From assembly GCF_010119195.1 (NCBI RefSeq), contig NZ_WRXL01000001.1, forward strand, positions 434,001 through 498,000: 64,000 nt of DNA, in the 5' to 3' direction. Below the pieces are notes generated by a model. The model did no database searches and had not been told where the DNA came from. It worked only from the letters and a program-made list of their open reading frames with translations. This document shows positions 1,974 through 6,898 of the stretch, piece by piece. The position numbers and the translations under genes are program-made. This DNA comes from Haloarcula salina. GTDB taxonomy: Archaea > Halobacteriota > Halobacteria > Halobacteriales > Haloarculaceae. How positions within the stretch are numbered: position 1 is the first letter of the stretch; each line of letters opens with the position of its first letter.

Positions 1974-3464
1974 CTATCCGTCGGTGTCGAGCCGACGGGC
2001 GGACTCGGCCACGTCCCGAATCTTCGCCGTCTGTTCCTCGTTCGTCGCCGCGAGATCGCCGAGCTGTCCGGAGATGTCGTCGATCCCGGCCGACAGTTCG
2101 TCGATCATGCTGGCGACTTCCTCGGTCGAGGCCGCCTGATCGTCGGTCGCGGCCGACACCTCTCGGATCCCCTGGGCCGTCTCGTCGATCGCGTCGACGA
2201 TCTCGTCGAGCCGTTCCGTCGCCGCTTCGACTTCTTCGATGCCGTCTGAGACCTGTTCGGTGACGGTCTCCAGGCTCTCGACCGCGTCGACGGTCTCGTC
2301 TTGAATCTCCGTGACCGTGTCTTCGATGCGGTTGGCGTGGGCCTGGGAATCGCCGGCGAGCGTCTTGATCTCGTCGGCGACGACGGCGAACCCGTCACCG
2401 GCCTCCCCGGCGCGCGCGGCCTCGATGGAGGCGTTCAGCGCCAGCATGTTCGTCTGGTCGGCGATGCCGTTGATGACCTCGACGATCTCGTCGATCTCGT
2501 CGGCGCGGCGCTTGAGCCCCGCGATATCGTCCGAGACCTCGTCGACGGCGCCGTCGACCTCGTCCATCACGTCCGCGGCCCGCTCGGCGGCCTCGCTGCC
2601 GCGTTCGGCCTTCTGCTCGGCCGACGTACTGGTGCTCGCGACCTCCTCGGCGGTGGACGCGATCTCCTCGATGGTCGCGCTCATGTCCGCGACCTCGCCG
2701 GCCACCTCGTCCATCGACTCGGCCTGGCTGTCGGCTGTCGCGCTGAGTCGCTGGTTCGTCTCCGCGACGCGCTCGGCCGACTCGCTCAGTTCGTCGATCG
2801 GCTGCTGGAGTCCTTCCTCGACCTCACGCATCAGTTGCTCTTGCTCCTCGTTCGCGGCCTCCAGGCGCTGATTGTACGAGTCGATGTAGGTGTCCATCGC
2901 CACCTGCTGGTCGAGATTGAGGAGTTTGAAGACGGAGAGGACGCGGTCAGACAGCTCGTCGAGCGCCTCGTCGCGGTCGGCGTCCGTCGACCGGATGTCC
3001 GCCGCGATCATCGACAGGAAGTGCTCGAAGTACGTCGTGTAGGCCCCGAGATAGACCTTGGGGCCGAGGTCGAGCATGTCGTGGATCTTCCCGATTCGGG
3101 CCCGGTTCTCGAAGTACTACCGGCCGTAGTCACCGGCGACGAGGTCCCGGAGGTACTGCTCCTGGGTCCGTTTGAGTTGCTCGACCGACTTCGAAGAGCG
3201 TCCGAAGATCTCGACGGTCTCGTCGAACGACTGGAGGTTGTCGTAGAAGTCCTCGACGACGGCCTCCGCGCTGGCGTCGACCTCGTCTTCCATCGCGACG
3301 AGCGCGTCGATATCGGTCTCGTCGAACCCCGTGAACTCCTTTCGCCACCGGATCTCCGCGTCGTCGAGACCGATACGCTCGGTGAGTGTCGATCCGTCCA
3401 CGCCGTTTCGGTCCGCCGCCGTGACCCGATTTCGCGGGACGGCGGCCGTCTCGTCAGTGGCCAT
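1974..3464 (-). pseudogene. hemAT: HemAT-type heme-globin aerotaxis transducer, broken by an in-frame amber codon
   Basis: The frame encodes a soluble globin-coupled methyl-accepting transducer that would sense O2 and signal to CheA. The N-terminal globin part (start 3464) reads up to DYGR, meets TAG at 3119-3117, and continues in the same frame with [14 protein letters not shown]. The proximal heme-ligand His belongs to KIHD, 12 codons after the stop. The C-terminal half holds the methyl-accepting coiled coil with the conserved tip [18 protein letters not shown]. Apart from the stop the frame is intact and well conserved, so the lesion is recent, a sequencing error, or read through. Restarting at ATG 3077 would lose the heme ligand but keep the signalling domain. 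In Halobacterium HemAT a Glu sits at the matching place, so GAG to TAG is the simplest change. An AT-rich box near 3490 fits the promoter. Confidence 0.85.
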
Positions 3465-3608
3465 ACTCCTCGTCGGAAGATACCGCGTTAATATGTTCGC
3501 CTCCCCTTTTCAAACGAGATAATAGAAACGCGTCCACTACCGAGCGGCGGTTCTGGGCGTTTGACCGGCTCGAAGCGATTCGGTTGGTGACAGCCGATAC
3601 GTTTTCGC

Positions 3609-6050
3609 TCAGTCTTCGAAGTTCTCGGGGTCGCGGGCCGCCTCGGCGACCCGCACCGCGGCGGCGTTCTCGGCCACGTCGTGGACGCGGACGATGTCGG
3701 CACCCTGTCGGGCCGCCAGGGTCGTCCCGGCGATGGTCGCCTCCAGGCAGTCGCCCGCGTCCTCGCCGACGAGGGAGAACAGCGACTTGTGGGAGTGGCC
3801 GACGAGGAGCGGGCAGCCGAGCGCTCGGAACTCCGCCAGTCGGCCGAGCAGGTCGAAGTCCTCGGCCGGGGACTTCCCGAAGCCGAGGCCGGGGTCGACG
3901 ATGATCTGGTCGCGATCCAGCCCGGCCTTCTCCGCGAGCAGGACCCGCTCGGTCAGCTGGTCGATGCAGTCCTCGACCACGTCGTCGTACTGCACGTCGC
4001 TGTCGGGGTCGACGGGCGTCTCGATGGAGTGCATCACGACGACGGGCACGTCGTACTCCGCCGCGACGAGGCGCATCTCGGGGTCTTCCAGCCCGGAGAC
4101 GTCGTTGAGGATGTCCGCGCCGGCATCGAGCGCGGCCCGCGCGACGGCGGCCTTCCGCGTGTCCACGGAGATCGCCACGTCGAGGTCCGCCAGTTCCTCG
4201 ATGACGGGGACGACGCGGTCGATCTCCGCGTCGGCGGAGATCGGTTCCGCGCCGGGGCGCGTCGACTCGCCGCCGATGTCGAGGATGTCGGCCCCGTCGG
4301 CGACCATCTGCTCGGCGCGCTCGACGGCGTCCTCGACGGCGTTGTACTCGCCGCCGTCGTGGAACGAGTCCGGCGTGATGTTGCAGATGCCCATGACGGC
4401 CGTGCCGTCGTCCCACGGGTGATCGCGGTCGCGCTCGTCTGACTGCTGAATGGACAGCGCACTCCGGAGTTCGTCGGCGAACGTCGAGAGCCCGTAGGGC
4501 TGGCCGTCCAGTTTCTCGGCGAGGCGCTTGAACTGGGCCATCGTCGCCATCAGCACCACGTCCAGCGACTCCTCGTCCTGATCGTTCAGGCCCGAGACGG
4601 CGCACTCGCCGCCCAGCGACAGCAGTTCCTCCTTGAGGTACTGGGCCTGCCGGGGCTGGACGCGGGTCCGCAGGACGCGGTGGACGCCCTTGCCGCGCAT
4701 CCGCCACGCGCCGGCGTCGGTGACGTGGGCGGCCTCGATGGCCTCGCGGGCGTCGGCGAGCGAGTCGACGCGCTTCGGGACAAGCGAGCGCGCCCAGCGG
4801 GTGCGGGCCTCCCGGACAGCGTACAGCGACCCGGTCACGAGGACGGCGTCGCCCTCGTCGGCGGCGTCGAGCGCGATGCCGAGCGCGCCGGCCACGTCGT
4901 GGCGCGTCTCGACCTCGGCGTCGGTCGCCGCCGTCAGCGCCGTCGCCAGCACGTGGTGGGACTCCGCCCGGTCGACGTTGGGCTGGCAGGCGACGACGCG
5001 GTCGGGGTCCGGCAGCGCCCCGGCGATGCCCGCGTGGTCCTTGTCGACCATCGCGCCGAGGACGACGTGCAGGTCGTCGTAGTCGAACGAGTCGAGCGTC
5101 TCCGCCGTCCGCTCGACGCTGCCGGGGTTGTGCGCGCCGTCGAGGACGACCAGCGGCGACTCGCCCATGACCTCGAAGCGGCCCGGCCAGTGGGCGTTCC
5201 GCAGGCCGCGTTCGAGCGTCTCCCGCGACACGTCGGCGACCTGCCGGCACAGCGCGGCCGCGATGCCGGCGTTCTGGGCCTGGTGCTCGCCGAGCAACGG
5301 GATGTGCGTGTCGACGGCCCAGTCCGGTCCGTCGATGGCGACCGCGCCCTCAAGTCCGTCGCGGCCGCCGTAGGTGGCGGTCACGTCCGCGTCGTCGCCT
5401 TCTCCGACGGTCACCACGTCGCCGGCGATCTCGCGAACGGCCGCGAGCGCGTCGCCGGTCGTACCGGTCACCAGCGGCTCGCCGTCGGGCGCGACGTGGG
5501 CCTTGTCACGGGCGATCTCGGAGACGGTGTCGCCGAGGATGTGGGTGTGTTCGAGCGTGACCGACGTGACGGCGCTGGCGACCGGATCGACGACGCTCGT
5601 GGCGTCGTGGCGGCCGCCGATGCCGACCTCCAGCACGGCAACGTCCACGTCCTGTCGGTCGAACTCCCAGAGCGCGAGCGCGGTCAGCGTCTCGAAGAAG
5701 GTCGGCGAGTCGCCGGCCGCGCCGCGCTCGGTGACGTATTCCCGGGCCGCCTTGACGTACTCGACGACCGCGGCCTCGGGAATCTTCCGCCCGTTGACGC
5801 GGATCCGTTCGCGAACGTCGTCGAGGTGCGGCGACGTGTACAGTCCAACGTCGAGGCCGGCCTCCCGCAGCGTCCGCTCGACCATCCGCGCGGTCGATCC
5901 CTTCCCGTTGGACCCCGCGATCTGCACGCAGCGCAGTCCCTCGTGTGGGTCGCCGAGCGACGATAGCAACTCCCGCGTGGCGTCGGTGCCGGGTCGCGAG
6001 GCGAACCGGCGCAGCTCGAAGAGGAAGTTCGCGGCCTCGTGGAACTTCAT
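3609..6050 (-). CDS. folCP: FolC-FolP fusion: dihydrofolate/folylpolyglutamate synthase plus dihydropteroate synthase
   Basis: This is a two-enzyme folate protein of 813 residues. The N-terminal half is FolC (Mur-ligase fold), with the P-loop GSNGKGSTA and the TSPHL motif, and joins glutamate to dihydropteroate or folates. The C-terminal 280 residues are dihydropteroate synthase, with GICNITPDSFHDGG, DIGGESTRPGA, SVDTRKAAVA and the pterin motif DPGLGFGKS. A linker of roughly 110 residues lies between them. Fused FolC-FolP proteins are known in haloarchaea and replace two separate genes. The ATG at 6050 is chosen because MKFHEAANFLFEL matches the usual FolC N-terminus and the preceding codons look random. 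The neighbours do not belong to the pathway. The function is secure by homology. Confidence 0.93.
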   Translation of the reverse strand: MKFHEAANFLFELRRFASRPGTDATRELLSSLGDPHEGLRCVQIAGSNGKGSTARMVERTLREAGLDVGLYTSPHLDDVRERIRVNGRKIPEAAVVEYVKAAREYVTERGAAGDSPTFFETLTALALWEFDRQDVDVAVLEVGIGGRHDATSVVDPVASAVTSVTLEHTHILGDTVSEIARDKAHVAPDGEPLVTGTTGDALAAVREIAGDVVTVGEGDDADVTATYGGRDGLEGAVAIDGPDWAVDTHIPLLGEHQAQNAGIAAALCRQVADVSRETLERGLRNAHWPGRFEVMGESPLVVLDGAHNPGSVERTAETLDSFDYDDLHVVLGAMVDKDHAGIAGALPDPDRVVACQPNVDRAESHHVLATALTAATDAEVETRHDVAGALGIALDAADEGDAVLVTGSLYAVREARTRWARSLVPKRVDSLADAREAIEAAHVTDAGAWRMRGKGVHRVLRTRVQPRQAQYLKEELLSLGGECAVSGLNDQDEESLDVVLMATMAQFKRLAEKLDGQPYGLSTFADELRSALSIQQSDERDRDHPWDDGTAVMGICNITPDSFHDGGEYNAVEDAVERAEQMVADGADILDIGGESTRPGAEPISADAEIDRVVPVIEELADLDVAISVDTRKAAVARAALDAGADILNDVSGLEDPEMRLVAAEYDVPVVVMHSIETPVDPDSDVQYDDVVEDCIDQLTERVLLAEKAGLDRDQIIVDPGLGFGKSPAEDFDLLGRLAEFRALGCPLLVGHSHKSLFSLVGEDAGDCLEATIAGTTLAARQGADIVRVHDVAENAAAVRVAEAARDPENFED

Positions 6051-6088
6051 GCTCGCTGTATCGGAGCCGCTCGCTTTAGCCTGTCGAA

Positions 6089-6898
6089 CTACTGCCCGGG
6101 CCCCGTCTCGTGCTCCCGCCTGGCCCACCGACCCAGCGCGCTCGTCGCGATGAGGAACGCGGCCCCCAGCAGCGGTGCCGGGTCGATGGACGCGCCCGGC
6201 AGGTCCTCGCGCTCGTCCTCTGCCGACGCATCCGTCTCCGTTTCGGTCGTCTCATCCGTCCCCGCTCCGGCTTGCGACGATTCCGTCGCGTCGCCGGGAG
6301 TCCGGTCCTCGCGGACGCTCCAGTCCACGTCCTCGCGGTCCTCGCGACGACCGCGAACGGGGATGTCGTCGCCCCGTTCGCTCCGGGCCGCCTCCTCGCC
6401 CAGCGCCGTCTGCTGTGGCTCGGGGGCCGGTCCGTCCTCGGTGTCACCAGCGTCGGTGCCGGCCACTCCGTCCGCCGACCCCGTCGGCGACGGCGTGTCC
6501 ACCGACGGCGGCGGCGAGTCCATCGTCTCGGATGGCGTCCACTCGTCCCACTCCTCGGTGGCTTCCTCGGCCGCCGACCCGTCCGCGCTCCGGCGTCGGT
6601 ACAACCAGAGCCCGACGAGGCCCGCGCCCAGCGCGACCAGCGTGACGCCGGTGCCGAGCAGGCCCCACTGCCGCCAGAGCGCTCCCAGTTTCGCCGTCGC
6701 GCCGCCGTCGGCTTCGTCGGCCGTGTCACCGGGGGCTGCGCCGGGGACCGGCGTCGCCTCCGGCCCGTCGTCGTCTGCGTCGTCGTCACCGACGGAACCC
6801 TCGCCCGCGTCGTCGCCGGCCACGGCGACGCCGGGGACGACGCCCAGCGCCCGCGCGACGGCGTCGCGCTCGACGTCGAGTTCGATGTAGTCGTCCAT
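6089..6898 (-). CDS. Haloarchaeal membrane-anchored protein of unknown function
   Basis: I do not recognise this 269-residue protein. The N-terminal 70 residues are acidic and Gly/Ala/Pro rich, followed by one clear membrane segment at about 80-103 (LLGTGVTLVALGAGLVGLWL) that ends in a positive cluster YRRR. A long, low-complexity acidic region follows, and a second weak hydrophobic stretch near the C-terminus (PLLGAAFLIATSALG) may be another membrane helix. The start MDDYIELDVERDAVARALG is the only good one. It faces the same way as the next membrane gene upstream (6944-7498), with 45 bases between them, so the two may be co-transcribed. No catalytic motif is visible. Confidence 0.7.
   Translation of the reverse strand: MDDYIELDVERDAVARALGVVPGVAVAGDDAGEGSVGDDDADDDGPEATPVPGAAPGDTADEADGGATAKLGALWRQWGLLGTGVTLVALGAGLVGLWLYRRRSADGSAAEEATEEWDEWTPSETMDSPPPSVDTPSPTGSADGVAGTDAGDTEDGPAPEPQQTALGEEAARSERGDDIPVRGRREDREDVDWSVREDRTPGDATESSQAGAGTDETTETETDASAEDEREDLPGASIDPAPLLGAAFLIATSALGRWARREHETGPGQ

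Follow-up and report, generated by a model that had tools for sequence, protein, structure and literature searches.

A gene for a heme aerotaxis transducer of the HemAT type, which lies in the first few kilobases of a 64,000-nucleotide stretch of the Haloarcula salina genome (the window, meaning the whole stretch that was analysed), contains an in-frame amber codon a short distance ahead of the histidine expected to bind the heme. This raises the question of whether the receptor has been lost, whether the base is wrong in the assembly, or whether the cell still makes a product from the frame past the stop, either by reading the codon as sense or by starting translation again behind it. The explanation favoured here, to which we give a probability of about 0.7, is a true and very recent nonsense mutation from CAG to TAG that knocks out the only hemAT gene of this haloarchaeon. 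The features on which the argument draws are listed in Table 1.

Table 1. Features of the interrupted hemAT gene (positions in the window).
Feature	Position	Strand	Remark
Interrupted gene for a HemAT-type heme aerotaxis transducer (protoglobin + MCP signalling domain)	1974..3464	-	ATG 3464 to TAG 1976-1974
Premature TAG, codon 116	3117..3119	-	CAG (Gln) in 15/15 closest orthologues
Stub of 115 codons that covers the first half of the protoglobin domain and ends before the proximal His	3120..3464	-	Protoglobin profile positions 2-80 of 158
Proximal heme-ligand His codon CAC, residue 128	3081..3083	-	Aligned with residue 123 of HemAT-Bs (1or4)
Open frame 3' of the stop, 367 codons from ATG 3077: remaining globin and whole MCP signalling domain	1974..3077	-	Still under recent constraint
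Promoter (BRE/TATA-like) box GCGAACATATTA of hemAT	3489..3500	-	Its GCGAACATAT identical in the 14 orthologues compared

The stop is codon 116 of 496, so that the protoglobin and MCP domains are not joined by one uninterrupted frame; the gene appears instead as two open reading frames, 3464-3117 (115 aa) and, from the ATG at 3077, 3077-1974 (367 aa). With the TAG read through, the 496-residue frame holds an N-terminal protoglobin domain at residues 35-197 (PF11563, 131.9 bits, cut-off 25) and a C-terminal MCPsignal domain at residues 286-457 (PF00015, 170.4 bits, above its cut-off). The proximal His codon follows exactly 12 codons past the TAG, and His128 aligns, with no gaps nearby, to residue 123 in the structure of the Bacillus subtilis HemAT globin domain (1or4), which we take to be the proximal heme ligand. 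His128 therefore belongs to the read-through frame, but it lies behind the stop. The first-pass annotation had described a HemAT with its domains kept on both sides of a TAG that breaks an otherwise well-kept frame, the proximal His coming 12 codons later, and all of this was confirmed. Globin-coupled sensors share a conserved proximal His (PMC12805357), and the HemAT of Halobacterium salinarum is a taxis transducer for which oxygen is listed as a repellent signal (PMC3579733). The domain content supports the identification of the gene as HemAT, a globin-coupled aerotaxis transducer, for which heme binding and O2-dependent taxis are predicted. Its protoglobin and MCP signalling domains come in the same order as in the HemAT proteins of Halobacterium salinarum and Bacillus subtilis, and the proximal His occupies the conserved position; the premature stop ahead of this residue is present only in the Haloarcula salina gene.

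Fifteen other genomes of the genus carry stop-free hemAT orthologues, 14 at 78-80% identity and one (G017) at 66%. These proteins, which include those of Haloarcula mannanilytica, H. vallismortis and H. amylolytica, are alike over their full length and share the same promoter box, but each has CAG where the window gene has TAG. The more distant G028 also has CAG at this position, and GAG was seen only in two homologues that are more distant still. Since CAG is found in all 15 close orthologues, the change was from CAG to TAG, which takes one transition (C to T) in the coding strand. This rules out GAG as the parent codon, and with it the first-pass proposal that the TAG was derived from a Glu codon by one base. 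The lesion is missing from all orthologues, which fits a recent pseudogene, and across 146 genomes of the family no protoglobin match other than the window hemAT has an internal stop.

The gene bears little trace of decay. Across hemAT, pN/pS against the G012 orthologue is about 0.12/0.46 (Nei-Gojobori), and relative-rate tests with G017 as the outgroup revealed no excess of amino-acid change on the window branch (28 changes in the window versus 28 in G012, and 29 versus 28 in G004). At 293 columns that are invariant in the 15 relatives, the window differs at 17, one of which is the stop itself, and the exchanges are mostly conservative. The globin stretch just past the stop shows a slight excess of change (6 versus 1) that is not significant (p about 0.06, uncorrected). 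No second disabling lesion was found in hemAT, and an alignment with the orthologues shows the GCGAACATAT of the promoter box unchanged in the window. The low pN/pS, taken together with the absence of a branch excess, indicates that the lesion is recent and rules out a long-standing pseudogene. Constraint and a kept promoter box together mean that the stop is either very recent or absent from the organism. The gene resembles the recent single-lesion pseudogenes of prokaryotes in having one nonsense change, no further decay and constraint up to the present, and it differs from them solely in which gene was hit.

We infer that the organism itself carries the TAG. Codon 116 would have gone from CAG to TAG by one transition, C to T in the coding strand, and translation would then stop after 115 codons, yielding half a globin that has neither the proximal His nor the signalling domain. 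Such a stub would be non-functional, and since it lacks both of these parts, the cell would lose heme-based oxygen sensing while the remaining taxis machinery stays intact. Most likely, no working HemAT sensor is made.

The rival that survives best is that the assembly is wrong at the T and that the organism has an intact hemAT. Such an error would produce a lone lesion, one base away from the codon that all close orthologues have, in a gene that is otherwise fully constrained and keeps its promoter box; the lack of a second disabling lesion is its expected look too. The quality of the assembly speaks against it (3.79 Mb in 14 contigs, 99.96% complete), as does the state of the surrounding sequence: when the window was compared with syntenic regions from two relatives, neither another stop with well-kept flanks nor a clear frameshift was detected in the orthologous genes over ~35 kb. 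Some pairs of frames that came out of this comparison as frame changes look less like frameshifts than like frames extended upstream so that they overlap the genes next to them. A base error is thus considered unlikely, although it keeps appreciable weight. The first-pass annotation had left three options for the TAG, namely recent decay, base error and read-through; the constrained frame, the kept promoter box and the CAG of the orthologues leave the first two standing, and the third is not supported for the reasons given below.

Every other explanation requires that the frame past the stop is still translated, and even when all read-through and restart readings are pooled, their combined chance is small. 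That some product is still made from this frame, be it a heme-free constitutive transducer or HemAT read through at a low level, is very improbable. If it were true, a nonsense change would have made an oxygen receptor independent of its ligand.

Read-through proper, in which a suppressor tRNA, pyrrolysine or a context-dependent mechanism lets the cell make full-length HemAT, could account for the constraint that persists in the frame 3' of the stop. It is nevertheless highly unlikely. Both a suppressor tRNA(CUA) and pyrrolysine genes were looked for in the genome, and neither was found: no CUA anticodon occurs in the 42 tRNA genes identified, a set that may have passed over tRNAs with long introns, such as an intron-bearing suppressor, and from which a few expected members are absent (e.g., no Gln-CTG and no Trp were called), probably owing to introns and search thresholds. 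A search by pattern for a TCTA loop with a T-arm after it yielded nothing that was evidently a tRNA (the matches were not each folded). Matches to the pyrrolysine synthetase and PylB models (TIGR02367 and TIGR03910) were all below the curated cut-off, which one control genome passes. TAG is the terminal stop of six of the 24 well-conserved genes in the window, HemAT included, and in several of these the orthologue of a relative ends at the same codon, which indicates that TAG works as a stop in this genome. Were it read as sense, HemAT would acquire a long extension out of its gene, as an antisense frame lies open on its 3' side (1973-876). The TAG at codon 116 is conserved in no relative, and a structured read-through context was rejected because the RNA near the stop has no unusual degree of structure (z -1.17). 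The archaeal recoding demonstrated so far comprises selenocysteine, pyrrolysine and one cellular frameshift only (PMC8211752). An unusual genetic code is not supported, and genome-wide reassignment of TAG is ruled out by the lack of PylS/PylB above the cut-off and of a CUA tRNA and by the use of TAG as an ordinary terminal stop.

Equally hard to credit is a restart of translation at the ATG at 3077, which would give a transducer of 367 residues that has no heme ligand and signals constitutively. This ATG is the next in-frame start, 39 nt past the stop codon and two codons beyond the proximal His; the frame that it opens contains a complete MCPsignal domain, and the taxis machinery of the genome is intact. 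However, in Haloferax volcanii, reinitiation is abolished at a distance of 22-23 nt (PMC10666635), which the 39-nt gap well exceeds, and there is no sign of de novo initiation at this codon; on both counts a restart is unlikely. The Met in question is an ordinary internal residue of the conserved KIHDML motif of the protein, so that finding it there does not argue for a start site, and what is left of the globin would be without its first half and its heme ligand. The restarted product is possible but not favoured, and the ligand-free signalling protein proposed in the first-pass annotation was not borne out.

If the nonsense mutation is true, it strikes one receptor and not taxis as a whole: cheA, cheB, cheR, cheW and the archaellins are intact, and MCP signalling domains are encoded by 14 genes of the genome, the interrupted hemAT included. 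Wider decay of taxis is thereby ruled out; a TGA flagged within the CheW domain of cheA proved to be the stop codon at which that gene normally ends. In the che cluster (contig C13, about 79020-83490; L160 3025-7487), cheR, cheA and cheB are on one strand with cheW divergent, and archaellin genes adjoin it. A second full protoglobin was not found in the genome. The other PF11563 match is a 120-residue truncated bacterial-type globin (PF01152; contig C7, about 614375-614740) that cross-matches the protoglobin profile, which rules out compensation by a second HemAT.

The strain would then be a natural, or apparent, knock-out of the sole heme receptor for aerotaxis, in a haloarchaeon that keeps its other taxis genes intact. 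Its general weight is small, as the cause is either a mutation of an ordinary type or a wrong base in the assembly; at most, the strain is handy for asking what oxygen taxis remains without HemAT. There is also a caution, in that a lone in-frame TAG in one genome record is not evidence of amber recoding.

Several further features were observed in the window. A short inverted repeat, TCTCA-N4-TGAGA (in some cases TTTCA-N4-TGAAA), stands ~10 nt upstream of the GCGAACATAT box in most hemAT orthologues and may be a regulator site; in the window (3500-3525, minus strand) its left half is altered (TCTCGTTTGAAAA). From about 33000 to 64000, the window does not align colinearly with the syntenic regions of the two Haloarcula relatives. 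The genes there (Nre, DnaJ, DnaK and TruB) are ordinary core genome in another order, so that a genomic island was rejected, and the sequence comparison places an apparent rearrangement breakpoint near 33 kb. Finally, at 3609-6128 on the minus strand, a single frame of 839 codons appears to join a FolC-like and a FolP-like (dihydropteroate synthase) folate enzyme, and it is one frame in relatives too (about 85% identity).
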